64,000 nucleotides of DNA, taken from assembly GCA_949361645.1 (NCBI GenBank), contig OX442435.1, forward strand, positions 6,583,045 to 6,647,044, written 5' to 3'. The translations under genes were made by a program, and so were the position numbers. This DNA is from Spongilla lacustris (Eukaryota; Porifera; Demospongiae; Spongillida; Spongillidae). Positions 17,345 to 64,000 of the stretch are shown here, piece after piece. Below the pieces are notes generated by a model. The model saw only the letters and a list, made by a program, of their open reading frames with translations. It was not told the DNA's origin and did not search any database. Within the stretch, counting starts at the first letter, position 1. Each line of letters opens with the position of its first letter.

Positions 17345-17399
17345 ATGACTCTTTCCAAGTTTATAGCACTACTAGTACTGTGTCAGCTATGTAGACGAG
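17345..17399 (+). CDS. Gene A exon 1: signal peptide
   Basis: ATG followed by MTLSKFIALLVLCQLCRR, a basic start and hydrophobic core typical of a secretory signal. The exon ends one base into a codon at GTGAGC. That phase matches the next proposed exon at 19000. Chosen because it is the only signal-like exon upstream of the Ig exons, although the 1.6-kb intron leaves room for others. Confidence 0.55.
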
Positions 17400-20300
17400 G
17401 TGAGCTCGAGTATTTTAGCAGAAAACTATTACTGAAGTACCATGCACTAAGAAATTCACTTCTTCACAGCGATATGTATTTTGACGCCATAATACACGTA
17501 GTTGGCAATAAGCTAGCTATAGGATTGCCGATCTAGTTGAGGGTGTGTAACCGATCGAGCGATTTTCTTAGGTTAATCGATTATTTAATACCTGCATGAG
17601 CGCTTCGGAAGACACGTCTTCGTCTCTAGTAGTTGGGCGTAGCCCTACCTACGTGTTCTAGCGAAGGTCGTATAGCCAACGCACTCGTAAAGAAGGAGCC
17701 CGTAGAGGAGCCAAGGAGAGTTGAGCAGCCCAGTAAAGTCGCTCCATTGCCTTCAAATCCTATACACCACTAACGTTCTCAGAGAGAATGTTTTTTATAT
17801 CATTTTTTTTTACATTGGGTTGCTTTAATATAACTAGGTACCAGTATGGCATTGTATACCTGCTATCTAGTACAGGCAAGTGCATTCATCAGAACCTGTA
17901 CCTGTATGTACATTTATGTAACTCAGAAATGTGATATACACTTGCTTGGGTGATGGGCCATTAGTGGTAGAGAGAAAAGGATCATTCATTTATACCAGCT
18001 CCCACCAAAATGCTAACTTTACATGCCAAAGGCATGTTAACTTCAGGAGATAAAATTAGGGCTCTAGGGTTGGGGCTACAAGGCGCGAAGCGCCGACAAT
18101 GCCGACTCCGAATCCGGGGTCAAATTGCACCCGCGGTGCTGTCCAGACACTCTTCATTGATAAAAACGAGCACCCGTAACAAAATTGAACAGCCTCGCCC
18201 ACACTACAATGCCTATGCTTACCCATGTCCAGCTGTAGCAACACTGCATGAACATGTCACTGCCTAGCAAAATCATGTTTTGTGGTTTGTTGGAAGCAAA
18301 TAACATCAAACTTATAAACTCCTGGGGTTATCTGATTGTGACTTATTTTAGGCAAATGAACTGCTTGGACAATCAGCTGATAACACACCTACCATTGAGG
18401 TCTACTGGTATAGGCCCATGCTGTTTTGTGTGATTGTAAGAGGTATCATAGAAATAGGGTTCTGAGGCAGCACTATGATGCCTTACCCCAGCTAAAATAT
18501 CATTTTCTGTTAATTTTATTGTATTAATGGCACGAACATCTTTTAAGAACCCCCCTGCTTTTGTTCTTCGAATGTTCAGTGCACAGTAGCATGTGCAGAT
18601 CTAGTGGTTACCTTTTGTGCTAACCATGGATGGGTCTTGCAAAAGGCATCATATAACTCATCTAGCAACGTCCTATTGCTTAGAATAGCCTTTTCAAGGC
18701 CACCCTTATACTCCATTAGAACACTATCATTGGGTTCGTACAGGGAGTTGCTAAAATGATTAAGGAGATGGAAACATGCAGTCAGTACTTAAATTTACTT
18801 ACTTTCACACTGGTAATACATGTAGAAGCCACATGTATATATATATATATATACATCCTGCAAAATCATGTCCTTTGATTTTAGCATGCAACAATTTGAA
18901 TTCATCAATTGGAAAAGTTTATTTCATTGTCAATACCACAGTACCATGTATCATGTTACATGGTAGTAAACATGCGTACATGCATCACAATCCATGCAGG
19001 TACCAGCCAGCCATGTCTTTACAACTACACCATTGGCTATTCATTTATCATCACCCAGTCTGCCCCAGTGTGTCTGATATGCTATTACACTTACTATACT
19101 ATATGGACCATTGATGGCATAAGTGGCGACATACCTGGAATACCTGGAGCCCCTTACATATTGTATATTACATCACCCACTACCACATTCACTAGTGGTC
19201 CAGAAGTTCGTTGTTGGAATGCAGCACACGTTTACTATACTGTAAGCTATGGTAAGTGTAACTTTGTGTTGATCATTCAGATGGAAACCATAAACTTTCT
19301 TTTTACACAGCAAATATAGCTGTTCCTGTGGTCCCTCAGGTTGTGACTTATGTGAATGAGACAGATACATTGAACCTTGCATGTAACAGTGTGATCACTG
19401 TTTCTAAATCTTCTATACATTTTTCCCCACCATTTCAGGGAATTCCGTTCCTTGCAGCCCAATCTTGGTTTGGCCCTAGTGGCAACACCATATCAAACTC
19501 CTCATCTGCTTCAGTACCTTCTATTAGCCGTACAGCTGCTGGGAACTATACATGTGTTACATCGCTGAATTCGCATGTAATTAGTATCATAAATGCTTCT
19601 ACCGTGGTGGTAGTCTACTGTGAGTGTCCTCCATATTGGGGGAACATGTTCCTCATGTTTCCCTTGTTCCCTCAGACCCTCCCAACATAATATCTCCCCA
19701 GCCCTCTGTCTTCATGCCCCAAGGCCTCAGTGTGCAGCTGAACTGTTCCTTTGATGGCCTCCCTGTCCCCACCATCACCTGGACTCTCCCCAGTGGGAGT
19801 GTCCTTACCTCCTCCCGGGGTCGCTTTATGCTTCAGTCCACCTCCACCTTCACATCCCTCACCATATCATCCCTGGTGGGGGGAGGGGACAATGGGACCT
19901 ACACTTGTACTGCCTCCAATTTGAGGGGAGTGGCCTCCAGCAGTGTGCAGCTGACTGTGCAAGGTGAGAGGTGGGCATGGCCTGAAAGGGGGCCAAGCAT
20001 TGCTGTGGTAGGAAACATTGAATCTGGTGGTGGGTGGGGCCAAACAAACTAGAGTATGGAGATGGTTATTTATTACCAACTCTATTACCCCACTGTCATC
20101 TACTCCTCCCCAGTCCTCCCTCCTGATGCTCCTACCAATTTGGCGGTAGCCTACATAGACAACTCCTCCATCTCTCTCAGCTGAACCAATGGGTTTAATG
20201 GCTACTCTAACCTGTCAGCTGTTGTCATTAGCTATGAGGTGGACAGGTACCCTCAGGATGGTACGAGGTCCCAGACCTTCCCCATGGGCACATCTGCTAC

Positions 20301-23300
20301 TCTCACTGGCCTCCACCCATACTCAAACTACACCATCCATGTCATGCTGACCAATGTTGTTGGTCTGGTCAGTAACTCTACCAACATTACTGTACCTACT
20401 GCTTCTTTGAGTAAGTCCTTGCAGATAATGCAACATAGCCTTAACCCTTCTATCACCACAGGACCAATGGCTCCCTCCATCACTAGTGTGGTGGCTAACA
20501 ACTCTACCCAACTACACATCATGTGGACAGTGAGCCCTCCCTCCCTCCCTCCCTCCCTCCCTCCCTCCCTCCCTCCCTCCCTCCCTCCCTCCCTCCCTCC
20601 CTCCCTCCCTCCCTCCCTCCCTCCCTCCCTCCCTCCCTCCCTCCCTCCCTCCCTCCCTCCCTCCCTCCCTCCCTCCCTCCCTCCCTCCCTCCCTCCCTCC
20701 CTCCCTCCCTCCCTCCCTCCCTCCCTCCCTCCCTCCCTCCCTCCCTCCCTCCCTCCCTCCCTCCCTCCCTCCCTCCCTCCCTCCCTCCCTCCCTCCCTCC
20801 CTCCCTCCCTCCCTCCCTCCCTCCCTCCCTCCCTCCCTCCCTCCCTCCCTCCCTCCCTCCCTCCCTCCCTCCCTCCCTCCCTCCCTCCCTCCCTCCCTCC
20901 CTCCCTCCCTCCCTCCCTCCCTCCCTCCCTCCCTCCCTCCCTCCCTCCCTCCCTCCCTCCCTCCCTCCCTCCCTCCCTCCCTCCCTCCCTCCCTCCCTCC
21001 CTCCCTCCCTCCCTCCCTCCCTCCCTCCCTCCCTCCCTCCCTCCCTCCCTCCCTCCCTCCCTCCCTCCCTCCCTCCCTCCCTCCCTCCCTCCCTCCCTCC
21101 CTCCCTCCCTCCCTCCCTCCCTCCCTCCCTCCCTCCCTCCCTCCCTCCCTCCCTCCCTCCCTCCCTCCCTCCCTCCCTCCCTCCCTCCCTCCCTCCCTCC
21201 CTCCCTCCCTCCCTCCCTCCCTCCCTCCCTCCCTCCCTCCCTCCCTCCCTCCCTCCCTCCCTCCCTCCCTCCCTCCCTCCCTCCCTCCCTCCCTCCCTCC
21301 CTCCCTCCCTCCCTCCCTCCCTCCCTCCCTCCCTCCCTCCCTCCCTCCCTCCCTCCCTCCCTCCCTCCCTCCCTCCCTCCCTCCCTCCCTCCCTCCCTCT
21401 GATTGAGTAAGATCAATGGATGAAGGTGTGAAGGATTACTTAGTTAAGGGGAGGTGGTATGAAGGGATGTGGATGCTATTGAGGTCCTCTTGTACCATGT
21501 ATAGTACTAAGGAAGTTCATGAGTAGGCCCAGAGCACAGGATGAGGGGTGTGTCTGACCATACCAGATACATTGCCATATCACCTCATATGGCACACAGG
21601 GGCGTTTATAACTACTAAGTTTCAGTAGCATGTAAAGATGTACTTCATTGAATGCATCAGTTACAAGTAATTCAAGAGGTATCTAAACCACCTGACAGAT
21701 ACTAACTGACACTACAGCTGAACCATCAGTAGGATGCACATCCACAGGATGCATATGCTCTCTTATTAGAATCGTTCATGTTGAGGTGGTGATTGAGAGT
21801 GTCACATAGGTATTTGGCACACACTACAAGAGTGACCTTTGTACTCTTAGGCCCCACCCATCAACAGTTCCACCACTGCACCTTTGACCTCTTGGACCAT
21901 TAGCTACACATGCTTCTCTTCATGGAGCCCTAGCTGTCCTTCTGGTACCATCACATCCATCCCTCCCTCCTCCTCCTCCTACTCCATCTCTGGACTAGTG
22001 AAGGGTTCTAGCTACACATTTGTGGTGGGAGGGGTCAACAGTGGAGCTGTTGGTGACCTGTCACCACCGGCAACCAATCAAACCACAGTGGACCGTGAGT
22101 TACCTGATTCTGCTTTCTCCACTCATAAAAATATCATTAAGCTGCTAAATCATAATATAATTATGTCATAAATAATAATAAGGGAATCACTAATGTGCCA
22201 CAGCATTTAAATTGAAGGCTGTACCCAGAAGGGTTGTACAGTCAATTAGTACACACACCTCAGTCTATTCAGAATCAATCAATCTTGTGGAGTGCAGTAC
22301 ATGTATTTACATGATCATACACTACATTTATACCCAGATGTAAGCATGTTTACACAGTGCCAAAAAATAAAATAAAAAATTCAATTTAATAGCAGCTGCC
22401 ACACAGCAATTTTACCTTGGGTACACCAGTACTATGGGGTACACCAGTACTATGGGGTACACCAGTACTATGGGGTACACCAGTATAGTACTATGGGGTA
22501 CACCAGTACTATGGGGTACACCAGTACTATGGGGTACACCAGTACTATGGGGTACACCAGTACTATGGGGTACACCAGTACTATGGGGTACACCAGTACT
22601 ATGGGGTACACCAGTACTGTGGGGTACACCAGTACTATGGGGTACACCAGTACTATGGGGTACACCAGTACTATGGGGTACACCAGTACTGTGGGGTACA
22701 CCAGTACTATGGGGTACACCAGTACTATGGGGTACACCAGTACTATGGGGTACACCAGTACTATGGGGTACACCAGTGCTATGGGGTACACCAGTACTAT
22801 GGGGTACACCAGTACTATGGGGTACACCAGTACTATGGGGTACACCAGTACTATGGGGTACACCAGTACTATGGAGTACGCCAGTACTATGGGGTACACC
22901 AGTACTGTGGGGTACACCAGTACTATGGGGTACACCAGTACTATGGGGTACATCCGGGTACACCAAAATACTATGGGATATTTAACTAGTAAAAAGTCAA
23001 TGAAATTTCATACTCTTTCAAAGTTTATCTGCATGCAGTTTATAAAACTCATAAAAAGTTGTCATACATTATTTGTCATATTACTTAATTGCAAGTTTTT
23101 ATAATTTGATTTTTGAACCATTAAAGGTAAATAATGCAGTTTGTATTTGCCTACTTACTACATAAATTCATTTACTTAGCATGATAATACTATTAAAAAA
23201 TAAAAGCATTGTGCCCATTTGTGGACACTGTATATGATATAAGGTGGAGTATTGTATTATAAAAAGAATGTTACGAAGTGCTGATCAATATACAGATATG

Positions 23301-25056
23301 TATAGACCGTAAAATAGGAATTGCATGCCAAATGTCTAAGCATATCTGTAGGTTATTCAGATCATTGCTGATTGAACTGGCTGGAAAAATCATTGTGAAT
23401 GAATTTTTCAGTTCCATCATCTCCATCAAACATCTTGTTGTCTCCTGCTTCTGGCTCTCCAACTGCCCTCTTTGCTAACTGGTCTGTACCCATAGCAAGG
23501 AATGGTATCATCACTGCATACACTGTGTACTGTAACACTTCTGCAAGTCAAGCATATCCTGAGCAAGTGATTGGTCCAAATCTTCCAACCATCAGATCTG
23601 TAGCCAATGGGACAACACTGGCTGTAACATTCAACACAAGACTCAACCCATACACACAGTATAGCTGTTATGTGACTGCTAATACATCAGCAGGAGTGGG
23701 AAGCCCTTCAATGGTGGTCACTGCAAGAACTGTTGAAAATGGTGAGACACTACATGTATGCATTCCATTAATTTCTGAGTGTAAAAGATTACATTGTAAC
23801 TCATTTGGATCTCTCACAGCACTGCCAATTAATGTTTGTTATCTTATACAGTTCCATCTTGTGTTTTTAACTTCACACTGTCTCCTGTTCCTGGCACTCC
23901 ACCTATATTGTTTGCTAACTGGTCTGCACCCATACCAAAGAATGGTGTCATCACTGGATACACTGTGTACTGTAACACTTCTGAAAGTCAAGCATATCCT
24001 GAGCAAGTGATTGGTCCAAATCTTCCAACCATCAGATCTGTAGCCAATGGGACAAAACTGGCTGTAACATTCAACACAGGACTCAACCCATACACACAGT
24101 ATAGCTGTTATGTGACTGCTAATACATCAGCAGGAGAGGGAAGCCCTTCAGTGGTTGTCACAGCAAGAACACTTCAAGGAGGTGAATTACGAATTCAAGC
24201 CCATACCTTATATGTACTATCTCACAAACTTTATTTATCAAATGTCTTCCACCTTATGCAATACTAGATACACTTAAGCATATAAGTGGTGAGCTTAATA
24301 GCAGATGTTTCCATTGTACAGTGTGCTAGATATCATCGTGCTAGGTGATTTCTCAAGCGAATGAAAAATTGCATGGCCGGAATGTTATACTCACGGTAAT
24401 ATATTATTAATTGCATCATTCATAAAAGAAAGGATAAGTGCATTTATGGCAGTTATGAAATTTATATACCCTAACCTCTAAATAACTGTAGTACAATACT
24501 TGGCACTTAATCACTTTCCTAGACTCTCAATGTATTTAATTTCAACCCTTAATTATACTGATTTAGTTCTTTGATATACAGGGTGATCCTAACTCGTGCA
24601 AATTTTTTGAGTAATACAATGCGTGACTTGCTATATATACATAGTTCTATCTCAACATGTCCACTATTGCCCAACCCATCAGGTCCCTCTACTGGCTGTG
24701 ATTCATGCACAGTAGCAGCTGGGGCATCAGCATCTGTCACCTTTGCAGTGTCCTTTCTTGGAGTGTTGGTGGCTTCTGTTCTCTGCTACATTTCAAAAAG
24801 GTGTATAAAATCATATAAACTAAGTTCACATGCTGATCCTATGTATGATGAGGTAGGCACTAATAAGAAGATGAAGGGAGATGTCATGGAGATGGATACA
24901 AACACTGCATATGGCTCACATATTATGGAGATGGATACAAACACTGCATATGGCTCACATATTATGGAGATGGATACAAACACTGCATATGGTTCACATG
25001 TTATGGAGATTGATACAAACACTGCACATAGCTTGCCATTTGAACCAATACAGTGA
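17345..25056 (+). CDS. Gene A: Ig/FN3 single-pass cell-surface receptor (ten exons, one in-frame stop)
   Basis: Predicted exons: 17345-17399, 19000-19251, 19311-19619, 19676-19963, 20114-20410, 20462-20529, 21851-22094, 23412-23741, 23852-24181, 24683-25056. All junctions have GT-AG ends and compatible phases (1-1 except one 0-0 junction inside an FN3). Product: signal peptide, novel exon-2 domain, two Ig domains, four FN3 domains, one transmembrane helix and a roughly 90-residue tail. It would be a type I membrane protein for adhesion or ligand binding; the tail has Tyr motifs suited to phosphotyrosine signalling. The odd point is a TGA at 20182-20184 in place of the conserved FN3 Trp, so the reference allele may be null. 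Its FN3 cassettes are near-identical to those of genes B, C and D. Confidence 0.7.
17400..18999. other. Gene A intron 1 with transposon debris
   Basis: Contains the MITE end at 17541-17600, the decayed unknown-gene copy at 18380-18760 and otherwise no recognised feature. At 17630-17774 a short open stretch on the plus strand ends in KKEPVEEPRRVEQPSK; it could be a stray terminal exon but nothing supports it further. Confidence 0.4.
18380..18760 (-). pseudogene. Decayed paralogue of the 147-1151 gene
   Basis: On the minus strand LYEPNDSVLMEYKGGLEKA...RTLLDELYDAF...LAQKVTTRSA lines up with LFEPNDTVQGTYKCELNKA...LLGELNDAF...LAPKVLTRTA. After a stop at about 18571, with some residues lost, RRTKAGGFLKDVRAINT, SEPYFYDTSY and IPVDLNG follow in the same order. 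It therefore has a stop, a deletion and about 40-50% identity by eye. It lies inside gene A intron 1 on the opposite strand. Confidence 0.75.
19000..19251 (+). CDS. Gene A exon 2: novel Cys/Tyr-rich extracellular segment
   Basis: 84 codons, phase 1-1. Hydrophobic and aromatic with four Cys (PCLYNY, VCLICYYTYY, EVRCWNAAH), ending VYYTVSY. I recognise no domain family. The ...YYTVSY end and Cys pattern suggest a beta-rich fold. A decayed inverted copy at 16680-16959 shows it belongs to the gene's original 5' part. Confidence 0.6.
19311..19619 (+). CDS. Gene A exon 3: Ig-like domain 1
   Basis: Phase 1-1 exon. Ig hallmarks: first Cys in TLNLAC, Trp in QSWFGPSG, and the second-Cys motif AAGNYTCV. 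Several N-glycosylation sequons occur (NET, NSS, NYT, NAS). Confidence 0.8.
19676..19963 (+). CDS. Gene A exon 4: Ig-like domain 2 (I-set/C2 type)
   Basis: Phase 1-1 exon. SVQLNCSFDG, PTITWTLPSG and NGTYTCTASNLRG are the classic Cys, Trp and DxGxYxC positions. The domain ends SVQLTVQ just before the donor. Confidence 0.88.
20114..20410 (+). CDS. Gene A exon 5: FN3 domain with in-frame TGA
   Basis: Phase 1-1 exon. PPDAPTNLAVAYIDNSSISLS is followed by TGA (20182-20184) exactly where FN3 domains have their conserved Trp (TGG to TGA is one base), then TNGFNGYSNLSAVV, VISYEVDRY and LTGLHPYSNYTIHVMLTNVVG. The rest of the exon is open and well conserved as FN3. Confidence 0.8.
20462..22094 (+). CDS. 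Gene A exons 6-7: split FN3 domain
   Basis: Exon 20462-20529 encodes PMAPSITSVVANNSTQLHIM plus WT and stops at GTGAGC. Exon 21851-22094 continues in phase 0 with TSWTISYTCFSSWSPSCPSG and VKGSSYTFVVGGVNS. An intron between the two FN3 sheets in phase 0 also occurs in the other FN3s of this family (30887/30940). The intron holds the giant CCCT repeat. The second exon recurs at 48312-48522. Confidence 0.7.
20535..21399. repeat. (CCCT)n microsatellite, about 216 units
   Basis: An uninterrupted tetranucleotide array of about 865 bp beginning five bases inside the intron after the donor GTGAG. Long Ser-Leu-Pro-Pro and Gly-Arg-Glu-Gly frames across it are artefacts. Its length may be an assembly estimate. 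Confidence 0.97.
22424..22968. repeat. 18-bp minisatellite array 1
   Basis: About 30 tandem copies of GGGGTACACCAGTACTAT with rare single-base variants (one unit enlarged at about 22480-22495). It lies in the intron before FN3 exon 23412-23741. All three plus frames stay open because 18 is a multiple of three; I do not consider them coding. Confidence 0.95.
23412..23741 (+). CDS. Gene A exon 8: FN3 cassette
   Basis: 330-bp phase 1-1 exon. PSSPSNILLSPASGSPTALF leads to ANWSVPIARNGIITAYTVYC and LNPYTQYSCYVTANTSAG, a full FN3. Near-identical cassettes are at 23852, 27596, 29122 and 49822. Confidence 0.88.
23852..24181 (+). CDS. Gene A exon 9: FN3 cassette
   Basis: 330-bp phase 1-1 exon with FANWSAPIPKNGVITGYTVY and the same C-terminal half as exon 8; the two differ mainly in the first 25 residues. 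Their separation of only 110 bp indicates a recent tandem exon duplication. Confidence 0.88.
24182..24682. other. Gene A last intron
   Basis: AT-rich intron. An alternative acceptor at about 24581 is excluded because it would give an immediate stop in phase 1. Confidence 0.5.
24683..25056 (+). CDS. Gene A exon 10: transmembrane helix and repeat tail
   Basis: Begins GPSTGCDSCTVAAGAS, then a hydrophobic helix (VTFAVSFLGVLVASVLCYI) and a basic stop-transfer (SKRCIKSYK). The tail has MYDEV, an SH2-ligand-like Tyr motif, then three MEMDTNTAYGSHI/V units and a diverged fourth (MEIDTNTAHS) before the stop at 25056. The acceptor after CCCATCAG is in the right phase with exon 9. An FN3 chain ending in this exon is a single-pass receptor. 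Genes C and D lack any equivalent exon. Confidence 0.75.
24884..25032 (+). repeat. 39-bp coding minisatellite in the receptor tail
   Basis: Four tandem 39-bp units (the last diverged) encoding MEMDTNTAYGSHI. Copy number can change without frame loss, adding or removing one Tyr per unit. Confidence 0.85.
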
Positions 25057-26458
25057 TTTCAAAATAGAGGGACAGCAATAATTAGATGTAGTAGCTGCTT
25101 TTGTCACTTGTATTCCCTTTGCTATTATTATGCCTTTGTTGACTCATTAAGTTTTGTTACTGTTGCGTGTGTGTGAGTGTGTGTGCGTGTTCATGTATCT
25201 ATGTCTGTTTAATTACATGGGACAGTATCCAGCATAATCATGCTTGTGAGACAATATTATTTGCTAATAACTGCATGATGGATATTAATTCCAATTTATA
25301 TAGGAACTTTTATTTCAGAGGAGATTTTTTAATGCCGGAAAACTTATACAACTGCCCTGATTTTACTGCATGGACATTGTTTTTATGTGGTCATTAGATG
25401 GTGGCTGGAGTATGGCACATCTGGTGCATGTGCCCATTCTGCCTTGATAGACCCCCATGTTCAACATGCAGGCATGAGGGAGATGTGTGTGCCCATCTGA
25501 GTGCTGAGAAGTCTCACTGTGAGACCATACACACCTAACCAGCATCACTGACTCATCACTGGATGGGGCAGCCAGCAGTACCCACACATCACCTCTCTGC
25601 CCTGCCATCTTGGGTGATTCCTTATAGCAAGTCCCATGCAAATGTCAGTCATTGGGCCAGACATGCATTCAACAGGCTTGTGGTAATGGCTGACACGTAC
25701 AGCAAGTGGGAAGTGTATGCTTAACTGGCTGTAGCTTTCTTAGTTTGGTAGCTTTGAGCATACAAAATGGTTTAAGTGCAATGTAAAAACATACCATCTC
25801 TGCCAGGCTGTTTCCCCAAAATCACATTTTGGTGCAATCGAAATTTACACAGTCTCCCGACTTTTCAGTGCTGATATTGATTCACTGCACACCATCACTC
25901 AAAGCCTACCAAGACACAAGAAATGTGCTATGAAAGGTTTCACATTTGTGGAGTTTTCAACTTTCCAAAAGGCAAAGATGCAGTCTCCCAAACCTGATGC
26001 TTTTGTATAAAGGTAGTACATGTGGTCTGCATGTGATGTACATGTGATGTACATGTGATGGTATACACGGCTGTTTCAAGCTGGACATTAGGTTGTTAAT
26101 TAGAATACATTCGAACATTACGGTATTTTGGTGTTTGGGATCCTGAAGGAGCTAATTATTTTGTGGTTTACGTTACAAGGCTCTTTTTGCCACTACAAAT
26201 TCAATACACACAACCATTATAATTTTCAGCTGTTCCACAACCAATTTCGTACTTAAAAAGAATAGTACGCACAGTCAAAGTAAGTTCTCTTTTGCTCTAT
26301 AATTGCCGCGCATGTGACTACTGAAGGCACACCTCTTATTGTTTTTATTAAGTGCTCAAGCGGCAACCGATTTTTCTCGAAACGCCCCAAGCAGATGGTT
26401 TTAAAACCTACTCCTACTCAAAGAGCAATCATTGTACATCACCTTTGCGTTTAGTGCA
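25057..26458. other. Between gene A tail exon and second minisatellite
   Basis: Holds the presumed 3' UTR of gene A (AT-rich to about 25350) and unique sequence. A 92-codon minus-strand frame at 25363-25641 is not recognised. Direct repeats of ACATGTGATGT occur at 26026-26060. No supported gene. Confidence 0.4.
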
Positions 26459-27245
26459 TGCTGGGTACACCAGTACTATGGGGTACACCAGTACTATGGG
26501 GTACACCAGTACTATGGGGTACACCAGTACTATGGGGTTCACCAGTACTATGGGGTACACCAGTACTATGGGGTACACCAGTACTATGGGGTACACCAGT
26601 ACTATGGGGTACACCAGTGCTATGGGGTACACCAGTACTATGGGGTACACCAGTACTATGGGGTACACCAGTACTATGGGGTACACCAGTACTATGGGGT
26701 ACACCAGTACTATGGAGTACACCAGTACTATGGGGTACACCAGTACTATGGGGTATACCAGTACTATGAGGTACACCAGTGCTATGGGGTACACCAGCAC
26801 TATGGGGTACACCAGTACTATGGAGTACACCAGTACTATGGGGTACACCAGTACTATGGGGTACACCAGTACTATGGGGTACACCAGTGCTATGGGGTAC
26901 ACCAGTGCTATGGGGTACACCAGTACTATGGAGTACACCAGTACTATGGGGTACACCAGTGCTATGGGGTACACCAGTACTATGGGGTACACCAGTACTA
27001 TGGAGTACACCAGTACTATGGGGTACACCAGTACTATGGGGTACACCAGTGCTATGGGGTACACCAGTACTATGGAGTACACCAGTACTATGGGGTACAC
27101 CAGTACTATGGGGTACACCAGTACTATGGGGTACACCAGTGCTATGGGGTACACCAGTACTATGGGGTACACCAGTGCTATGGGGTACACGGGGTACACC
27201 AGTACTATGGGGTACACCAGTACTATGGGGTACACCAGTACTATG
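26459..27245. repeat. 18-bp minisatellite array 2
   Basis: About 44 copies of the same GGGGTACACCAGTACTAT unit as array 1, with more G/A variants, and one shortened unit near 27190. It lies about 350 bp before an FN3 cassette exon (27596), the same relative position as array 1. Confidence 0.95.
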
Positions 27246-27595
27246 TAATCTTAATAAAAAATATTGTCATACATTGTTGTGTCATATTAATTAATTGGAA
27301 GTATTTTGACTTTTTTTTTTAGGTAATCCATGCAGTTCGTATTTGCCTACTTTAGTTACTTTATATTCATAAATTCAGTTAGAGTGATAATCCATTAAGG
27401 AATAAAAGCATTGTGACACCCTGTATATGATATAAGTTGGAGTATTGTATCATAGAAAGACTGTATGTTGCAAAGTGCTGAAAACAAAATCAATACTCAG
27501 ATATACAGATACATATAGACAGTAAAATAGCAATTGTGTCTAAGGATAATCAGATCATAGGTGATTGAACTGGCTGGAAAATTCATTGTTTTCAG

Positions 27596-29451: not shown

Positions 29452-30018
29452 GTGAGTGTGTTGGTGTTTTTCAACAATACTGCATAATTGGCTTTTTTTT
29501 TAAATGCATGCATATTGTCTTTTAACAACATGCATGGTATATTGGTTGGTACCATATTCTCTATGGTGTTTAATCAGGGTTGCTGGCAACAATCTATCAC
29601 ATGACTGACACACTTGATTTTGAAAAATAATGATTTCAATTGTTGAAATGATAAATTTGGTTTCAACATTGTTATTACAGATGTGCTTCAAAATCTTAAT
29701 CCTTCTTGTGATACATTTGAGAGTACCATGAACAGGTGCTATATAGATCTCAAGCTTAGGACACAGGACATAGTGGCATCACCTACTAAGCCACACTATA
29801 AAGTGGTGTCTGGTCTAATTTGGGTTTGATGTTCTAATTCCCAATCCTGTTTTTAGCAGTGACACATGAGCGCATGGTGAATAGTAAATTTAGTAATCCT
29901 TCACAATTTTTTTGACTTTAATTTAACACAATCTAGTGACAGTGTGACCATTATTTTAGTTTAAAAAGTCCTAAGGCTCCAGTATCAGTTAAATACTTTC
30001 ACATTCTTTCATTTCCAG

Positions 30019-31111: not shown

Positions 31112-31165
31112 GTAAATTTCACCCATGCTGAAAAGTGACATAATAAACATTTAATTTACATTTAG

Positions 31166-31654
31166 GACCTACCACAAATCCTAGGGTTTTGTACTTACGA
31201 GTGTCCACACTAACAAATATTGAAAACCACCAAAATGATGCAGCTCTTTCACAGCTACAAAATCAGGTGAGCAGTAGAAGAATCTTGAAAAAATCTGTAA
31301 TGCTTCCCCCCCCCCCCCCCCCCCCCCCCCACTTACAGTTGTATAGTGCTGTAACTAATTCATTTCCTGGAAGCAAGACATCTGAATTGGGCATATCATG
31401 TGCAGCTGTACAAATGTAATGAATACCTGAATTACATAAAAGGGATATAGAATACATAAGGGGATAGTTACACAAGGGATACTTAGTACTAATGTATATA
31501 TGAATTTATAGGTGTGAAACTGGACAGTACAGGATTGAGTGTAAAATGTTTATATTTCTCAACGTGGATGTGAATAATATTATACAGCCACTTAGTATGA
31601 TGAACATAAGTGTGGCTTCACTTATTCCTCTGGTGAACACAGAAAGCATATCAG
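31166..31654 (+). CDS. Gene B SEA-like segment (three exons)
   Basis: Exons 31166-31266, 31339-31415 and 31512-31654. NPRVLYLRVSTLTNIENH, DAALSQLQNQLYSAVTNSF, then CETGQYRIECKMFIFLNVDV. Alternating strand-helix pattern with an L-x-x-Q-L-x-x-A-V helix is reminiscent of SEA domains, which often precede HRM/GAIN in adhesion GPCRs; this assignment is inference. Small exons and their phases (0, 2, 1) are identical in genes C and D. Confidence 0.6.
31303..31331. repeat. Poly(C) at a 3' splice site
   Basis: About 28 C directly before ACTTACAG, the acceptor of exon 31339-31415. Gene C has about 36 C at the same acceptor (52020-52055), while gene D has a short run (62151-62160). Confidence 0.85.
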
Positions 31655-31713
31655 GTTATGTTTATTCACAAGTTAGTAATTACAAAGGGTTGATGTATGA
31701 AATTCTTTTGAAG

Positions 31714-31943: not shown

Positions 31944-31998
31944 GTAATAGAACTCAAACATCTGTGCCATTATTACTAACTTGTATTCATAATGCCAG

Positions 31999-32870: not shown

Positions 32871-32928
32871 GTAAGCTATCTCATAATGCCAGCACAAAGC
32901 TCGATTATTATTGTATTTTTTTGTACAG

Positions 32929-40063: not shown

Positions 40064-40099
<36 letters not shown>

Positions 40100-48311: not shown

Positions 48312-55502
<7,191 letters not shown>

Positions 55503-56439
55503 TTAAAACTGATTTTAATGGACGCTAAATTGAAATTATGGCTGTTCACGTTTAGCTTTTGTCAGACACTACATGGGCATATGCTATCTGTCACTTATGT
55601 TAAGTAACTCTGATCTGAGGGGGTTAACAAATGGATGGATCTGAAAAGTAGAAATGGGGATACAAAATATACTTTTACAAATCCATTTTCTTCCGGTAGC
55701 TACAGATTTGTTGGGTAAAATAATATAAAACGAGGTAGCTAAAGCTGATGTTTGACAGCATTTCAGTTTTCTTTACATTTGGTACCACATTGGAACCCAT
55801 TATCTTATCTCATCTTCAATGGTGATTATGGGTTACACCGCTTATCTTTCAATATCATTCATTACCATGATATTATATTCAATTCATTATCTTAAAGCCT
55901 CCTCCAAGTGCATTGACTGTTGTGAATGTCAAGCATTCCATATTTTGCTTACTCATCACATTTCATTCATTCTTGATATTTTAATTACAATCTGAATAGG
56001 AATTTTCAACAGGCATGAATGCAAGCAAACTGATCAGGCCAGTAAGGACAAATTTAAACAGCAAAATAAACTGACAGACCAACTATGAAATCACACATTA
56101 AACATTTGTCCTGATGAATTGAAATTCAAGGTAGAACTAGTGGATTGGAAGAATCATATGTTCTGTGCACATGCATTGTTTAATTTCTCCAACATCACAC
56201 TATCATTTTAAGGACCATATAAATTAATCCTAAACATACACATGTCTATGCAGGCATCACCAATCAAGCTGCCCTTTGATACTTCTGTCAAGTGCCAGTT
56301 TAAGTGTATTGAGAGACTTCCAGTAGTACGTTGCCCACTTCTGAAAAAAAATCTTACCCGCTATATCACAATAGTTTTGTAAACCTGTATTTATGTCATC
56401 AATTGATTAGCAAATTGACCTAGCAAAATTGACCTACAC
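55503..56439. other. Gene C 3' flank
   Basis: 3' UTR and spacer. 55900-55960 has weak similarity to the TM7 exon (GCATTGACTGTTGTGAATGT...), suggesting a further eroded fragment. No gene. Confidence 0.4.
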
Positions 56440-57597
56440 ATTATACCACCACATCCATCCCACCCAGTAATGGGTTCTAGCTACATATTTGTGGTGGGAG
56501 AGGTCAAAAGTGGAGATGTTGGTGACCTGTCACCACTGGCAACCAATTCAACCTTTGATGTGGATGGGGGCGGAGGCCTTGTTCATGTTCCAGAAGATTG
56601 TCATTGTGTTTTTCCAGATCACCACACGCTACATTGTTGTTCTGTCCCTCATCTGCTGGGGTAGGTAATAACCCCTACAAGGATTGGTATGGAATGAGAC
56701 ATGTTGAATTTGGGCAAGAAGTAAGGGGTGGGAGGGGAGAGGGAAGGATCCACTTTGATCAAATCTTATACCCCTCCAGTGACTCTGCTGGTTCCAGTTA
56801 TCATCCCTCTGGCAATAGATAGAAATTTGCTTGTGAAACAGATACATAATAATAATTCAACAATGGGATAGTAAGTTGAGTAATTTTTACTTGCCGTTTC
56901 AGACTCCCTTTCTCTTACTTACAGCTGCTTCATCAGTAATGTTGGAGTATTTTTTGGTGCTTTTTTGGGACCCATTCTGTTAGTACTTGCCTTCAATATG
57001 ATCATATTCATTATTGTGATAGTGGTACTGTTGAGGCATCTTCACAATGATCCAAAGAGCATAACAAGAAGGTTGGTAATCTTAAACCGATGGCAAATAT
57101 CACTGGGATAGCCTTTCTATTTGGTCTTACCTGGCTCTTTGGAGCATTAACTGTTGTGAATTTTGATCAAGCATTCCAGACTTTGTTCACATTTGCCAAC
57201 TCCTTTCAAGGATTCCTTTATTCATTTTTCCCTGCGTACTAAACAGGGATGTTCGATTCACATGCAGGATGCAGAAGGTATTAGGGAAACATCTTGCCAT
57301 GCAAACCAGTGCTCACAAGCAGTCCACATATTTCCGAGACCAACAGGACATATCTGAATGTGTTGTCACCGAACACATATCGTCACCTGCAAAACTTACG
57401 TGTACCATCTCTTCCAATTAAAAAAATCACAGGAATGAGGTGGTGGAGGTGACATTTGATGAGTTGGATAAACCACATCAATAAGAACTTCTGGAATCTA
57501 TTATCACTGAAGACATGCATAAGCTCCACATGGAAGAAGTGGTACAGCTTAAGTATGATGAGCAAGAAGCTAGGAGATATGATGTTGGACTCTAACA
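56440..57597 (+). pseudogene. Chimeric pseudogene: FN3 half fused to 7TM exons
   Basis: 56470-56550 encodes GSSYIFVVGEVKSGDVGDLS, as in gene A exon 7, and within a few bases joins TM3-TM4 sequence (56553-56664; MWMGAEALFMFQKIVIVF in its proper frame). 56780-56870 matches the loop exon and 56925-57237 the TM5-TM7 exon, with frameshifts near 57040 and 57215. The tail to 57597 resembles gene D (HMEEVVQLK..., RRYDVGL). Non-functional. It is an inverted partial copy of gene D's 3' half. Confidence 0.8.
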
Positions 57598-58818
57598 ATC
57601 TGAAAATGAACTGTGATTTTAATGGGCTATGTTTTGTGGATAATGTAGGTTAAAATTAAAATTATATGTTTAGTGCTTTGCTGAAGACTTTCATTAATCA
57701 TATGCATGTGCTTAGAGATGTTTTTTCAACTACAGCTAGGGTTTGATACAAATGAAGCGTATATTTAAACTTATACATTTAGTCCTTTGCTGAAAGACTT
57801 TTTATGCAGTATATTAGTAATCATATGCACCTGCTTGGAGATGTTTTGTTGATTTAAAATTAGATATAGTAATACTTTGTATCAAGGAAGTGAATCAGAA
57901 TGCTAGGTAAATTTGCTAATGAAATGGTGTAGATCTGTAATATAGTGCACAATATCTGTAATTCATATTAATAGTTTCCTTACTTTTTATACAACTATTG
58001 TCTAGAAATTTATAAACACGCAACTGTTCGTAAACGTAATCCTGATACTGGTTCATTGCCATTCACTTGGGTTTAGGGACGTGGGTTTGGATAGGTGCAA
58101 GGTATGGAGGTCTAGCATGTCTTATTTTGATGGCTTTGCTAATGACATTGGTTTTGGAAATATCATCATCTTACACCCAACCCACCACATGCTGGTGTGG
58201 ATTTAGAGGCATGGGTTGGGTGCAAGATGATAGATTTCCTAAACCAATGCCTTTGTGATGATTAGCAAAGCCTTCAAAATAAGACACGCAATTCTAGACC
58301 TCAAACCCACAATCCTAAACCCAAGTGAATGGCAATTAACCAGTACCAGGATTATGTTTACAAACAGTTGCATTTTTTTGGCCAGAAAATTCTAGAAACC
58401 AGGTCTGTAAAAGTATGGAAACTAGGAATTACTGAATAGCTGAAAGAGATCCTGCTTAAAAGCAAACTTCCATCCATTGCCCACCTAATCCTCCCAAATT
58501 CAGTTCATGTGAATCAAGTTCTCACTTCCTGATCCTGGCCACCATGAACTTTCCTCCTGTTGCTGACACACTATATAAAAACATCATCATCACAACTGAA
58601 CAAAAATAAGTTGTGATCCATGAGCCATAGTCACCTTTTGATTGATGGTGGGCATGCCTTGTTTGCAAGGTGTGGCAATTAAAAAACATCTCCAAGCACA
58701 TGCATATAATGGACATCATAGAAAGTCTTCAGCAAAGCACTAAACATGTAAGTTTAAATTTAAGCTGATTTTTTTACCAAAACATAGTCCATTAAAATCA
58801 CAGTTCATTTTCAGATTG
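57598..58818. repeat. Inverted duplication centre between pseudogene and gene D
   Basis: About 58000-58183 and 58211-58390 are imperfect inverted arms (CCATTCACTTGGGTTTAGG on the left, its complement on the right). Similarity continues outward with gaps, so 57598 and 58818 are the mirrored gene ends, about 600 bp from the centre. No gene inside. Confidence 0.75.
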
Positions 58819-60220
58819 TTAGAGTCCAACATCATATCTCCTAGCTTCTTGCTCATCATGCTTAAGCTGTACCACTTCTTCCATGTTCAGTTCATCAAAT
58901 GTTCCTTCCACCAACTCATGCATGTGATGTTTCTTGGAAGTGATGGTAGGTGTCAGTTTTGCAGATAATTCCAGAGTTGCTATGTCTTCTGTGACAACAC
59001 ATTCAGGCTGCTCTGATATGTCCTTTTTGTCTTGAGAAAGTGTGGACTGCTTTGTGAGCACTGTTTGCACGGCAAGACGTGTCCTGAGTACCTTCAGCTT
59101 CCCGCATGCTAATTGAACATCACTGTTGAGGACGCAGTAGAAAATGAATATAAGGAACCCTTGAAATGAGTTGGCGAGTGTGAACAAAATCTGGAATGCT
59201 TGATCAAAATTCACAACAGTTAGTGCTCCAAAGAGCCAGGTAAGACCAAATAGAAAGGCTATCCCAGTGATTTTTGCCATCAGTTCCAGATTACCAACCT
59301 TCTTGTTATGCTCTTTTGATCGTTTGCGAAGATGTCGTAACAGTACCACCATCACAATAATGAATATGATCATATTGAAGGCAAGTACTAACAGAATGGG
59401 TCCCAAAAAAGCACCAAAAAATACTCCAACATTACTGATGAAGCAGCTGTAAATAAGAGAAAGGGAGACTGAAACACCATGTGAAAATTACTCAACTTAC
59501 TATCCCATTGTTGAATTATTATTATGTATCTGTTTCACAAGCAAATTTCTATCTATTGCCAGAGGGATGATTACTGGAACCAGCGGAGTCACTGGGTGGG
59601 TGGGGGGGGGGGGGGGGGGGGGGGGGTAAGATAAATTTGATCAAAATGGATCCTTCCCTCTCCCCTTCTACCCCTTCCTTCTTGCCCAACTTCCACATGT
59701 CTCGTTCCATTTTCATTCCCTCTTGCCTTCCCCCCACCAATCCTCTTGGGGGTTATTACTTACCCCAGCAGATAAGAGATAGAATAACAATGTAGAGGGG
59801 GGAGGAGATCTCGACAAACACAATGACAATCTTCTGGAACATGAACAAGGCCTCCGCCCCCATCCACATCACAGCCACCAGAGTGAAGTAGTGGATCAAC
59901 ACTGACACAGTCACACAGCCTCCAAAGTTTCCAGTCTTGTCTATCCCAGTTACAAACACCAACAGCATACCAATGAGAGCACAACACAACTGGATGTGGT
60001 ACTTGGAAGCATCTCTCTGTCTTAGCTTTCTGAAAGTACATTATGAAATAAAAAGATACTGCAAACAATAGTTAACCTACTTTATCAGCAAAAGTGAGAT
60101 GACTGTCACCACTAGACCAAAAAGGGACAGTGATACTCCAATGTAGGTGATGGCCTCATTCACAATAGATGGTATAAGTGACATATTTGATGGGATATTA
60201 TTGATTCTACTTGATATGTC
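58819..60220 (-). CDS. Gene D seven-helix region and tail
   Basis: TM1 exon 60220-60081, TM2-4 exon 60029-59764 (ALIGMLLVFVTGIDKTGNFG), loop exon 59591-59501, TM5-7 and tail exon 59446-58819 (GLTWLFGALTVVNFDQAFQI, SFQGFLIFIFY). The tail has KHHMHELVEG and ends RRYDVGL; it lacks gene C's ILYAEL motif. Confidence 0.93.
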
Positions 60221-63200
60221 CTAAGATAATAAAGATGTGTCACATTAGAACACAGTGGCATTTTCTCTTACCACAAGGACAGCAAAGTTTGTCAAATGGT
60301 AGCATTTGCATTGAATTTGAATGCTTGTGGTGTTGCTTGCATTCACCTGGGTTGTGTAGCACCCATCAGATGTCCAATTGCCCTTATTACCTAGTTTGGA
60401 TAAATACTATATACTTTGCTGGATGCATGGAGGTAAATTACTAGTTGTTCCTCTCACAACTATCTGACCCCCCCCCCCCCCCCCCCCCCCCCCCATCTTT
60501 TTTCTTACCTGCTGCTGTGAAATCCCAGCTCACACATGTGTAATTTGGATTATTATTCTGTACATACATGTAGACAAAATGATTAGAATGTATGTTGCAG
60601 CTGGTTTTATGCTGGCATTAGGAGATAGCTTACTGTGTTTGGAATGCTGAAATTTAGCTCAATTGGATCACCCAGAATGCTTGTGTTCATGCCCACGACT
60701 GTAACACCAACAACTAGGGGTGCTACAATGGTTGAATTTGGTGTACTTGCTAATGGAAAGAATGATGCACTTTTGTAGATAGTAGAGAAAATTCCAACAT
60801 CATTAGTATTGTTAGTAGTGTTATCTGTTGTTGGCAGACTGAATAATGACTGTGGTAGAAAAATTGAAGCTGTCAGCTTGGCTGAACTACTAGGAGGAGG
60901 AGTTATGTTTGCAGAACTGTTTTCTGATGTTTGGTCATTGTTTTCAGTTGCAAAACTCTTTCCTTGGGTAGTGACGGTTTCCAGTGGAATCTATTCAGTA
61001 GAATTGAACAAACAAATTTCATCATAATTACACTGCATGCATCATTGAGAACCTTTTCAGCACCAAATACAATTTCATTATTTGTAGCATCAAATGATGT
61101 AAAATTGTCTTGCTGAACAAAGGATGTTGCTATCTTCTCAAAATTTTGAACAATGCTTTGAAAAAAGGCCATATTAATAAACATTATAATTCAAGTCACT
61201 ATTTACATAGAACCAGTTGTACTTAACACCATTGGTGGCCATGTTTGGATACTGCTGAGCACTGAAACAACATTCATGATGGTCTGAGGAAGACATAAAA
61301 TACAGTACCTGCCACAATAACATGCATGCACATACATTAGTCTGCACCTGTGCTTGAGACAATATGTTGGAAATTTGAGTGAACCATGCTGCCACAACAG
61401 CCAGGTTAGAAGCACTCTGGTCCACCACTTGTGTAGCTTGGGACACCACAGTCTGTAGCTGTGCTGTGACGTTTGCCACATTCTGTGTAGTGACTGTTAA
61501 CTGGCATTATGAATACAAGTTAGTAATGATGAGAACAGATGTGTACATTATATTACATTATTCAGTTCAGCAAACTGATTTGTCACTACTGTAGGACATT
61601 TCGAAGAGTCTTCAGTCCATGTTAGGTTTGTATTACAATATCTTGTAATGTTTTGGCCAATCATAACCCCATACTGACACAATTGAGAATCAATGTGATT
61701 GGGCTCTGCTTCAGGCCAGTTGTATGTTCCATGGTCACTCGTCACATTTAGCTCACAATTACAAAATCCATTTGCTGCAAAAGAATTTCATACATCAACT
61801 CTCTGTAATTACTAACTTGTGAATAAACATAACCTGATATGCTTTCCGTGTTCACTAGAAGAATAGGTGAAGCCACACTAATGTTTATCATACTAAGTGC
61901 CTGCACAATAGTATTCATATCCACTTTCAGAAATATCAATATTTTACATTCAACCCTGTACTGTCCAGTTTCACACCTATAAAGGCATGTGTACATTAAT
62001 ACCACGTATCTCAAAGTATCCCTTATGCAATTATGCCTTATGTATTCATTATGGTTTAGGTATTTATTACATTTGCACAGCTGCACATGATATGCCCATA
62101 TCAGATCTCTTGCTTTCAGGAACTGAATTAGTTACAGCACTATATAACTGGAAGGGGGGGAAAAGCATTACATGTTTTCATGGCTCTTCTGCTGCTCACC
62201 TGATTCTGAAGCTGGTGAAGAGCTGCATCATTTTGGTGGTTTCCAATATTTGTTAGTGTAGACAATCGTAAGTATATAATGCTAGGATTTGTGGTAGGTC
62301 CTAAATGTTAATTGGATGTCTCTTTTTCTATATATTACACAGGTGAAATTTACCGGGAAATGTTGTACCATTTGCAGTCATGTTCGGACCACATCCCCCT
62401 GCTGTGCATGCACACAGAAGAATTGTATACTGTGTGTTATTTAACAGGTTTTGAAGTAGAAGTGTGGTAACATTTGACACATTGTAAGAACTAGATGGAA
62501 AGCCACTTGATGGTGTGTATGTCACCTATGTTAGCAAATCATCAGTACAATAGCTTGCATATCATATTTCACCTCACCATGTATCCTGATACAATTCTAT
62601 TTCTGCATGCTGGTGGGTTCCATGATACAAGCAGACTGCTGTAACTGAGAACACTGACATTTAGATTGAGGGGGGAAGTAGGAGGGGGCTGGAGGGTGAT
62701 GAATGAACGAGGTATGGAGAACACTCCTTCTCCCTGAGTGGTATGTGCCAATACTTCAAATAAGTAAGATGTGAAGGGTACTGGGGAAACATTGGTGCAG
62801 AATTATGAGCATAGAAGCTAGGCTATATTTAATCACACTTACAAAGCAACATGCCCTTTAGTAAAACATATCTCTGATATCCAGGAACTGTAATGTAGTA
62901 ACTTAGGTTTTGTCCATTTACACAGTCTGCATCAATAGAACTGGGGTCAGTAACTGTGACATTTACAGAGTAGGAAATGATTATATAATTCTTCTCCAGA
63001 GGACAGCTCCAAGTTAGATTGGCAGAAGTCGAATTGAGGTTACTGAGTAGAACTTCTGGAGGTTGTGGGACCTGAGCATACACTGTGTGTGCACAACCAG
63101 ACCACTTGCATTGCTGTAACTATATGGTCCAGTGTGAACTCACTGTTTAGTGATGAATCAAGGACTGGTACACTATATGGTCCAGGCCCTTGGCTGGTGT

Positions 63201-64000
63201 AAGCTCTCACAGATATGTTGTACTGCACACACTCCTGGAGCATATTTATCATTAGCTGATTTTGGGTACCACTGGTGTTCACAGAGTTGGTAGCAAGCTG
63301 TCCATTACCCAGGGACCATGTGTATGCCACTTCATAGGCTATGATGATACCATTCCTTGAAGTATTGGGTAGCTGATTCCAACTGACATTGACTGAAGTT
63401 GGTGCAACTGTGATGGCTGCTACTGTGCCTGGAGCACCACTAGGAACTGGAAATGAAAGTATCTATATGATTTTAACCAATATTAATGGTCACACTAATA
63501 CTGCATCTTGTTAATTAAAGCCACTGCAAAATATGCCATTTTTACTATTCACCGTGCGCTTGAATAAGTAAAAAAAAGTCCAGCTATCAATAGGATGGGG
63601 TAGTATTAAATGCTAGTACATGTATATAGTGTGGCTTAGTAGATGATGCCACTAGGTTTAAGCTTGAAACATATGGCCCTTGTTCCCGGTATACGACATC
63701 ACTGTAAGAATTTTAGGATTTATAAAACACACCAGTAATGTTAGAACCAAAATTTTATTTCTTCATTTCAATGTTTATTTTTCACTTTTAAAATTTAAGT
63801 GTACGATAAACATGATTTATTGTTACCAGCAACCCTAATTAAACAGCATATAGGGTACTGTTACCACCATTGTAAAAAGTAAATATGCAGGCATAAAAAC
63901 AATCATTTCTTAGTCATTGGTGCAATGTTGTTGAAAACACCAACAGACCCACCTCCTTCTCCTGTCCTCATAGTGAGTATCTTTGAAGGACTTCCCTCTC
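58819..64000 (-). CDS. Gene D: adhesion G-protein-coupled receptor (5' part beyond window)
   Basis: Minus-strand exons: 64000-63953 (partial), 63446-63144, 63082-62843, 62780-62578, 62525-62354, 62300-62200, 62147-62071, 61976-61834, 61774-61557, 61500-61336, 61283-61207, 61155-61053, 60990-60634, 60557-60509, 60390-60272, 60220-60081, 60029-59764, 59591-59501, 59446-58819. Most lengths equal those of gene C, and no stop interrupts any exon. Same order: FN3s, SEA-like, HRM, GAIN, GPS, seven helices, tail. Expected to be a surface receptor cleaved at the GPS. The acceptor of exon 61155 lacks a strong pyrimidine tract. N-terminal exons lie outside the window. Confidence 0.87.
59596..59627. repeat. 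Poly(G) (poly(C) on the gene D strand) at a splice acceptor
   Basis: On the minus strand about 22 C plus CACCCACCCAG precedes exon 59591-59501, replacing an ordinary pyrimidine tract. Confidence 0.85.
60272..61774 (-). CDS. Gene D HRM, GAIN and GPS exons
   Basis: HRM exon 61774-61557 (DHGTYNWPEAEPNHIDSQLC, NITRYCNTNLTW). GAIN exons 61500-60634, with NFEKIATSFVQQ where gene B has its stop. GPS exons 60557-60509 and 60390-60272: CVSWDF, GNWTSDGCYTTQ, CKCYHLTNFAVLV with the HLT site intact. Confidence 0.9.
60468..60494. repeat. Poly(C) tract in a gene D intron
   Basis: About 26 C in the short intron between the two GPS exons of gene D (poly(G) on the transcribed sense strand). Confidence 0.9.
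61834..63446 (-). CDS. Gene D FN3 and SEA-like exons
   Basis: Exons from 63446 to 62354 encode FN3s (VSWNQLPNTSRNGIIIAYEV; ANLTWSCPLEKNYIIISYSV; LLVSWNPPACRN with VTYTPSSGFPSSSYNVSNVT). Exons 62300-62200, 62147-62071 and 61976-61834 encode the SEA-like part (CETGQYRVECKILIFLKVDM). Confidence 0.85.
63447..63952. other. Gene D intron between FN3 exons
   Basis: 506-bp intron matching in part the introns after the FN3 cassettes at 49822 and 29122 (for example the GTTGCTGGTAAC-type segment). No other feature. Confidence 0.6.

Follow-up and report, generated by a model that had tools for sequence, protein, structure and literature searches.

Probable exchange of phase-1 exon modules in a young cluster of mosaic receptor genes of the sponge Spongilla lacustris

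Introduction

Paired immune receptors such as CEACAM and KIR carry near-identical ectodomains on different signalling tails, and their gene clusters turn over. In this work we describe a cluster of receptor genes in the sponge Spongilla lacustris which differs from those systems in that one of the tails is a seven-transmembrane (7TM) G-protein-coupled receptor (GPCR). The cluster lies in a stretch of 64,000 nucleotides of contig OX442435.1 (C22:6,583,045-6,647,044), called the window below, and its modules were searched for in the whole assembly (248.6 Mb, 51 contigs). The closest described adhesion GPCRs (aGPCRs) are ADGRG2 and ADGRG6 (GPR126). The sponge genes resemble them in the 7TM, in a GPS with an HLT triplet, in a putative GAIN region and in a SEA-HormR-GAIN order that can be aligned with the ADGRG6 ectodomain (6v55). 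The ADGRG6 ectodomain has CUB/pentraxin domains; the sponge genes differ by their Ig and FN3 cassettes, and Pfam misses their SEA, HRM and GAIN parts.

Among sponges, aGPCRs with fn3, Ig, EGF and HRM domains are known from Amphimedon queenslandica, and SRCR also occurs in sponge aGPCRs (PMC4302439). An earlier annotation of the window made from its letters, here the sequence-only reading, had called the architecture unusual; with FN3, Ig and HRM already reported on sponge aGPCRs, it is less so. The available part of the Amphimedon report is silent on cassette identities, on clusters and on any sharing with one-pass receptors. A 2025 study suggests that aGPCRs diversified by extensive domain shuffling (PMC12716839). 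For the sea-urchin Sp185/333 genes, a diversified family, tandem repeats at gene edges were proposed as the driving force of duplication and deletion (PMC5103432); that is another protein family, and the sponge repeat considered here is intronic, at a module seam. A head common to one-pass receptors and an aGPCR is not described in the titles and abstract openings listed by our literature searches, and may still be in print. Domain shuffling of aGPCRs and sponge aGPCRs with fn3 and Ig are thus known, and the new element is a young case that crosses receptor classes.

Results

Three modules and the units they form

We call head the series N-terminal exon, Ig1, Ig2, FN3-1 (F1) and FN3-2 (F2, its second exon being F2b); F3 is a repeated FN3 cassette type, and core the exons for FN3b-c-d, SEA-like, HormR-like, GAIN, GPS and 7TM. 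The region is probably a young cluster of mosaic receptor genes made from exchanged phase-1 modules, a reading to which we give a probability of about 0.68. Three modules would meet at phase-1 introns: the head, whose home would be a family of single-pass receptors; the F3 array, which would be an expandable run of one cassette type; and a C-terminal module, which could be either a one-exon single-transmembrane (single-TM) tail with a tyrosine motif or an 18-exon ADGRG-like 7TM core. The head would precede the 7TM core in D, very likely in C, in the broken A+B and in a fragment.

The sequence-only reading had proposed four parallel units, A to D, all of them GPCRs. We find three head+7TM units, one of which is A+B, plus the fragment; A ends in a single-TM exon, and the head and first two F3s of D lie outside the window. 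Its description of related units in both orientations holds (B and C on the + strand, D on the - strand), with aligned core pieces mostly 85-92% identical and GAIN-region parts down to 74-77% (self-comparison of the window with tandem repeats masked), as does that of intact and broken copies: C and D are open, B has a stop and has lost its 7TM, and A has a stop in FN3-1.

Divergence changes abruptly along the genes

A and D are 96.6% identical over Ig2, F1 and F2b (synonymous divergence, dS, 0.064), while the F3s of A are 81.5-86.7% identical to F3-1 and F3-3 of D (dS 0.23-0.38). In Ig1, which a short intron separates from the downstream Ig2, identity is 75.9% (dS 0.36). Behind the second of the minisatellite arrays described below, B and D are again close (FN3b-d, 93.4%, dS 0.108). 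The step in identity from F2b to F3-1 has p = 2e-5 (Fisher, one post hoc comparison). The contrast between Ig1 and Ig2 extends to eight loci (six on C22, one on C6, one on C20) of the nine places with an Ig2 at >=86%, C20:2,651,365 being left out: dS is higher for Ig1 than for Ig2 in 28/28 pairs, which are not independent, with medians of 0.392 and 0.089, a fourfold difference. The N-terminal exon behaves like Ig1 (median dS 0.573, 21 pairs from 7 of the 8 head loci, c22_6554 being short) and F1 like Ig2 (0.132, 6 pairs from 4 of 5 loci, c20_2719 being short; the Ig1 of c20_2719 is partial, 192 bp). Across head loci, the 56-bp intron that separates Ig1 from Ig2 has changed little. This pattern would be explained best if a block of Ig2, F1 and F2 had been converted, or had spread recently, beneath a head that is older and variable; we do not ascribe it to constraint alone, because constraint would need to hit synonymous sites and the intron.

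Over the aligned models dS is 0.22 for C-D and 0.16 for C-B. The ratio of nonsynonymous to synonymous divergence (dN/dS) is below 1 in every domain compared (C-D 0.59 overall, 0.09 for HormR-like and 0.34 for 7TM; the highest is 0.86, for FN3b-d of C-B), and positive selection is therefore not claimed.

The modules occur separately elsewhere

Of 37 candidates in the genome, 17 match F2b, and for 8 of these the match is strong (E 2e-23 or better). On C6, F2b (5,652,258) is followed within about 2 kb by a single-TM exon (5,650,271), and on C20 the same succession occurs at 2,650,156 and 2,648,022 and, with stops, at 2,814,201 and 2,812,400; the genome search with the TM5-7 exon found no 7TM match near these C6 and C20 head loci. 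The single-TM exon has 40 genome matches, several per locus where the tail repeats. Among the 15 distinct one-pass tails caught by the pattern, 12 have YDEV and 7 TVYDEV; the form in A is PMYDEV. The immunoreceptor tyrosine-based switch and inhibitory motifs (ITSM/ITIM) are of the form TxYxx[VI], and TVYDEV, as we take it, fits the ITSM consensus. By eye, the single-TM exon also stands behind differing upstream frames, Ig-like on C13 and other FN3 types on C3, C15 and C22. It looks as if it were itself a shuffled terminal exon.

On the GPCR side, TM5-7 gave 66 matches from 87 candidates, clustered at C22 6.05-6.64 Mb, C24, C1 and others; HormR-like gave 37 from 47, and FN3b 62, with 150 scored of 247 candidates. 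Ten FN3b copies reach >=89% and a TM5-7 match follows in 8 of them, the exceptions being B and C24:4,973,395. Further family members lie on C24, C1, C6 and C15. Within the gene models and matches listed, head and 7TM are seen combined only in this C22 cluster.

The sponge Ephydatia muelleri has the same core, the same F3 cassette and the same head family, and differs in the domains that accompany its core, which include EGF, LDLa or other Ig domains (P0005, P0006, P0010). Its core models (P0001-P0008, P0010) are 53-65% identical over 31-100% of the region. Of the head models viewed, P0043, P0045 and P0050 have one transmembrane segment by eye and P0041 none. Among the best 120 of 211 head matches, none has 7tm_2 and only E. 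muelleri P0044 shares the whole head (64% over 98%). E. muelleri P0054, a NIDO-tyrosine-kinase protein, also carries F3.

Genes D and C

D has 26 exons and 1,865 residues without an internal stop and runs past the window edge. It is predicted to encode an aGPCR of the order Ig1, Ig2, F1, F2, three F3, FN3b-d, SEA-like, HormR-like, GAIN, GPS, 7TM and tail, hence Ig-Ig-FN3x8-(SEA-like, HormR-like, GAIN)-GPS-7TM. Pfam finds 8 fn3 stretches, Ig, GPS (1.3e-11) and 7tm_2 (2.1e-32). One exon is present upstream of Ig1. The parts of D are:

58819-63446, - strand: core from FN3b (63446-63144) to the stop (58819), 18 exons, open frame.
64279-63953, - strand: F3-3, straddling the window edge.
C22:6,648,047-6,653,307, - strand, outside the window: Ig exons, FN3-1, FN3-2 and the first two F3s.

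C has 19 exons (49,822-55,502, + strand) and 1,267 residues without an internal stop; all internal borders are AG/GT and all phases consistent. It is predicted to encode an aGPCR with an open frame whose 5' end lies in an assembly gap. Its parts are:

48112-48311: assembly gap of 200 N, truncating the FN3-2 exon of C.
48312-48522, + strand: 3' part of FN3-2, which belongs to the head; over 210 bases it matches D at 95.2%.
49822-50148, + strand: F3, supported by GT-AG borders and phases.
50723-51823, + strand: FN3b-d, supported by GT-AG borders, phases and fn3 in Pfam.
51885-52390, + strand: SEA-like part, by alignment with ADGRG6.
52452-52669, + strand: HormR-like part, by alignment with ADGRG6.
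52726-53617, + strand: GAIN, by alignment with ADGRG6.
53677-53902, + strand: GPS in two exons with the HLT triplet, by Pfam (GPS 4e-12) and alignment with ADGRG6.
53962-55502, + strand: 7TM in four exons plus cytoplasmic tail to the stop, by Pfam (7tm_2 2.3e-31).

Pfam supports FN3 (fn3 2.5e-45, four stretches), GPS and 7TM in C, and Ig in D, as the sequence-only reading had it; the SEA, HRM and GAIN domains that it also named have no Pfam model matching C at E <= 1. These three assignments rely on the ADGRG6 alignment and on a low-confidence structural model. ADGRG2 and ADGRG6 are the best matches of the C region in the Protein Data Bank: GAIN to TM7 matches ADGRG2 (7xke, 1.4e-49), SEA-like to GPS can be aligned with 6v55, the ADGRG6 ectodomain (5e-10, query 67-466), and the GAIN part was aligned to the aGPCR ectodomains 6v55, 7qu8 and 9s9u. 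The YxWPE motif and nearby cysteines are kept in the 6v55 alignment and the Pfam HRM model is unmatched, and this part is therefore named only HormR-like. In the AlphaFold model of an E. muelleri homologue, of low confidence (mean predicted local distance difference test score, pLDDT, 56.9), the SEA-like part shows a strand-helix-strand-strand-helix-strand order and the GAIN part a helix-rich portion followed by strands; fold matches include 6v55, 4dlq and 4dlo at ranks 3, 14 and 17. Fold matches and strand-helix order give weak support because of that mean pLDDT. The GPS HLT triplet, kept in both C and D, together with the 7TM suggests that signalling by a tethered agonist may be predicted for these genes.

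E. muelleri models are the named proteins closest to the C-terminal region of C (P0001, 57% identity over 100%), Halichondria panicea coming next (35%). By eye, the exon joins of the E. muelleri models are the same as in C, which supports the splicing model of C. The cytoplasmic tail of C (55178-55502) is unlike that of D (dN 0.96, dS 1.24, 89 codons), whereas the tails of the fragment and of the stretch behind B match that of D; this would be one more join, at the 3' end. Within the tail exon of C, TM5-7 resembles its counterparts in D and the fragment, and the cytoplasmic tail differs from both.

The broken unit A+B and the fragment

A BLAST comparison of 15-34 kb with D shows that 18,973-33,484 is collinear with D, so that A and B are a single broken head+7TM unit with an extra block inside. 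The order is head, an extra F3-F3-TM block, two F3s, core and then a deletion: at window position 33,161 the alignment jumps from 13,687 to 15,167 of D, and B thereby lacks the remainder of its last GPS exon as well as the 7TM. Its parts, and those of the fragment, are:

19311-19619, + strand: A Ig1, by splice sites and phases.
19676-19963, + strand: A Ig2, I-set in Pfam (1.4e-15).
20114-20410, + strand: A FN3-1, with an in-frame stop at 20182-20184.
20462-20529 and 21851-22094, + strand: A FN3-2 in two exons, by splice sites and phases and collinear with D.
20535-21399: (CCCT)216 with 100% matches (Tandem Repeats Finder, TRF), inside the intron that splits FN3-2 of A.
23412-23741 and 23852-24181, + strand: A F3 cassettes, 330 bp each, phase 1-1.
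24683-25056, + strand: A terminal single-TM exon with cytoplasmic tail (YDEV, 39-bp tandem repeats), by phase-1 acceptor and stop.
27596-27919 (324 bp) and 29122-29451 (330 bp), + strand: B F3 cassettes.
30019-32977, + strand: B core exons from FN3b to the first GPS exon, each with its homologue in C and in D.
33085-33161, + strand: B second GPS exon, cut at 33161; about 1.48 kb including the 7TM exons is missing.
56466-57726, + strand: fragment in which a piece of FN3-2 runs, in the middle of the exon, into part of a TM2-4 exon; TM5-7 and a tail like that of D follow, with frame breaks.

The GAIN region of B has one in-frame stop, and homology after the cut resumes at the 3' end of D (58834). 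The fragment has the form expected after an internal deletion in another head+7TM unit. Two candidates were rejected: the block of A as a GPCR unit, A ending in the single-TM exon at 24,683-25,056, and an SLPP repeat as coding sequence, its frame being that of (CCCT)216, which lies in an intron. The same FN3-2 intron of D has 240 copies of (CCCT)n (C22:6650576-6651534), and both arrays are likely to be polymorphic. A putative intron of 39 bp in Ig1 of A has a length divisible by 3 and no stop. Directly past the broken end of B lies a 45-bp tandem repeat (33912-34503, 13.2 copies at 97%). An inverted stretch at 15936-16256 (- strand) matches a piece of Ig1 at the DNA level and, by eye, a piece of Ig2, and is a further broken head copy.

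Cassettes and exon borders

The F3 set comprises 31 cassettes from the window and further loci, with duplicates from overlapping loci merged and with matches below about 90 aligned residues and 4 matches cut by locus ends left out. Lengths range from 312 to 333 bp, 18 cassettes having 330 bp and 8 having 327 bp, and borders are phase 1-1; the sequence-only reading had given 324-330 bp. A first border scan sought AG/GT only in the phase 1-1 frame, and the count at a fixed codon offset is the fairer test: AG occurs in 28/31 and GT in 29/31. Phase 1-1 borders for most extracellular domains, also part of that reading, are found for Ig1, Ig2, F1, the F3s, FN3b and the first FN3c exon, and for F2, FN3c-d and SEA-like as blocks; HormR-like to 7TM is not 1-1. 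From FN3b to the end, the identical exon lengths it had noted apply to 12/18 exons (C against D) and to 9/13 complete exons (C against B), the remaining differences being multiples of 3; the first GPS exon in D and B begins 3 bp before the position projected from C.

The genome search for FN3 cassettes that the sequence-only reading had proposed as a check brought further members: of 599 F3 candidates 150 were scored and 150/150 matched at >=75%, hence at least 150. The CYVTANTS codon pattern, typical of F3, has 354 exact genome matches and its reversed control 0. At C24:5,099,769-5,103,110 eight F3 cassettes recur in an order of three, the repeat unit measuring about 1,305 bp. In the tree of the 31 cassettes, F3s by one-pass genes (C22:6.511 and 6.547 Mb) group (100/98) with two F3s that lie upstream of the TM match on C24 at 5.059 Mb. 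F3-2 of D is remote from all other cassettes (best 75.8%). A dense F3 array lies at C21:1850972-1955853, and the sole TM5-7 match on that contig is weak and at 4.6 Mb; perhaps this is another receptor class that uses the cassette.

A minisatellite between head and F3

An 18-bp minisatellite occupies the intron between FN3-2 and F3 in A, C and D. In the window its arrays are:

22419-22952, + strand: array 1, between FN3-2 and the F3s of A, by TRF and genome matches.
26463-27245, + strand: array 2, between the TM exon of A and the first F3 of B.
48902-49408, - strand: C array, flanked by FN3-2 and F3 and opposite in orientation to the gene.

The spacers behind arrays 1 and 2 are homologous, and the array in C has one degenerate sense copy (48868-48894). 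An exact 45-mer has 33 genome matches, all on C22 at five places; a 27-mer with <=3 mismatches has 121, of which 98 are in the window, 19 in the D stretch and 4 elsewhere on C22. Reversed controls and shuffles gave 0 matches.

Other features of the window

An open frame of 545 residues (11917-13554, - strand) has a DDE_Tnp_1_7 transposase domain (4e-38), presumably of the piggyBac type. Another, of 338 residues (150-1163, - strand), has no Pfam match at E <= 0.01. The left end (2065-4374) and 42088-48036 share scattered inverted matches of 75-93%, probably a dispersed repeat.

Discussion

The cluster would change by unequal exchange and conversion between copies, with the 18-bp minisatellite as the likeliest exchange site: recombination of array 1 with array 2 in A+B would drop the FN3-FN3-TM block and give the order of C and D. 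A recombination site at this seam is plausible and unproven. The exon-cassette shuffling proposed by the sequence-only reading survives in so far as phase 1-1 cassettes were duplicated, recombined and attached to different C-termini, and fails for its four units, all GPCRs; shuffling is supported because of the identity step at the seam, the fourfold dS difference at eight loci, the F3 grouping at 100/98 and the three-cassette repeat on C24.

Could the same anatomy arise without exchange? The core exons of B, C and D match one to one and dN/dS is below 1 in every domain compared, as expected if an ordinary multidomain aGPCR had been duplicated in tandem and had decayed, the likeness of its copies reflecting whole-gene descent and constraint. 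Such a history, with no exchange of modules, would have to produce a fourfold dS difference between adjacent exons at eight loci with the intervening intron little changed, the same head with different ends on other contigs, and the identity steps at array 1, and we hold it to be improbable. The single-TM exon of A admits another account, since its phase-1 acceptor fits the preceding cassettes and the exons of B continue on the same strand in the order of D: it could be an alternative last exon, splicing giving a one-pass or a seven-pass receptor from one locus. However, the open genes D and C show no remnant of such an exon (the best tblastn match, in D or 48,312-56,400, has 9 residues, E 1.2), A+B is broken, and on C6 and C20 the TM exon follows a head with no 7TM match near, so that alternative ends are unlikely. 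Finally, the 200-N gap at the 5' end of C, together with long perfect tandem repeats that are hard to assemble, recalls the collapsed or misplaced haplotypes against which the sequence-only reading had warned. This is contradicted by the place of the copies on one scaffold in both orientations, the 16 kb of D containing 0 N bases, by dS values of 0.11-0.22 between cores, by their differing architecture and by members on C24, C1, C6 and C15; the adjacency at the 5' end of C is unproven beside the gap. An assembly artefact thus appears very improbable.

Exchange of phase-1 modules remains our preferred account, and several observations weigh against it or against parts of it. The gene models are read from genomic DNA, with predicted exon joins; a signal-peptide exon was looked for upstream of Ig1 of D and not found; and the head in front of the core of C, its 5' end being in the gap, is very likely rather than certain. 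The protein search for the head, with full-length D, scored 7,986 candidates with lengths of 0.55-1.75 of the query, and the best 120 of 211 matches were listed. In the cassette tree 7/28 inner branches are starred and most forks are weak, and the tree does not settle gene history. Core and 7TM are not always together, C24:4,973,395 having FN3b and the HormR exon with TM5-7 unmatched, and the low dS of Ig2-F2 could come partly from constraint. As for the minisatellite, its fifth place is not at a seam: there a short run precedes the N-terminal exon of a different head gene, so that the array goes with the C22 head genes and not with seams alone; the genome-wide 27-mer search found none at the head genes of C6 and C20, and the array therefore cannot be a general route; and a simple exchange between arrays does not explain the inversion in C. 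Either direction is conceivable, the TM block having been gained by A+B or lost by C and D.

By this exchange of modules, one recognition ectodomain could signal through a tyrosine-motif tail or, alternatively, through a tethered-agonist GPCR. The likeliest reading of function is a recognition role with two outputs, in which the receptors, if expressed, may act in recognition of neighbouring or foreign cells. A bolder proposal, speculative and doubtful as a whole, is a sponge recognition system in which a variable Ig head (N-terminal exon and Ig1) on a homogenised Ig2-FN3-FN3 stalk would be connected now to a one-pass tail with a tyrosine motif, now to a tethered-agonist GPCR, a private intronic minisatellite making the rewiring recur between individuals; these would in effect be paired receptors crossing receptor classes at the base of the animals.

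The gain of aGPCR ectodomains is usually inferred from distant domain architectures. In the present case a single genome allows a comparison, at roughly 75-97% DNA identity, of related one-pass head genes with head+7TM genes, with broken copies and with a candidate exchange site, and the comparison suggests that one sponge recognition head could feed two signalling systems.

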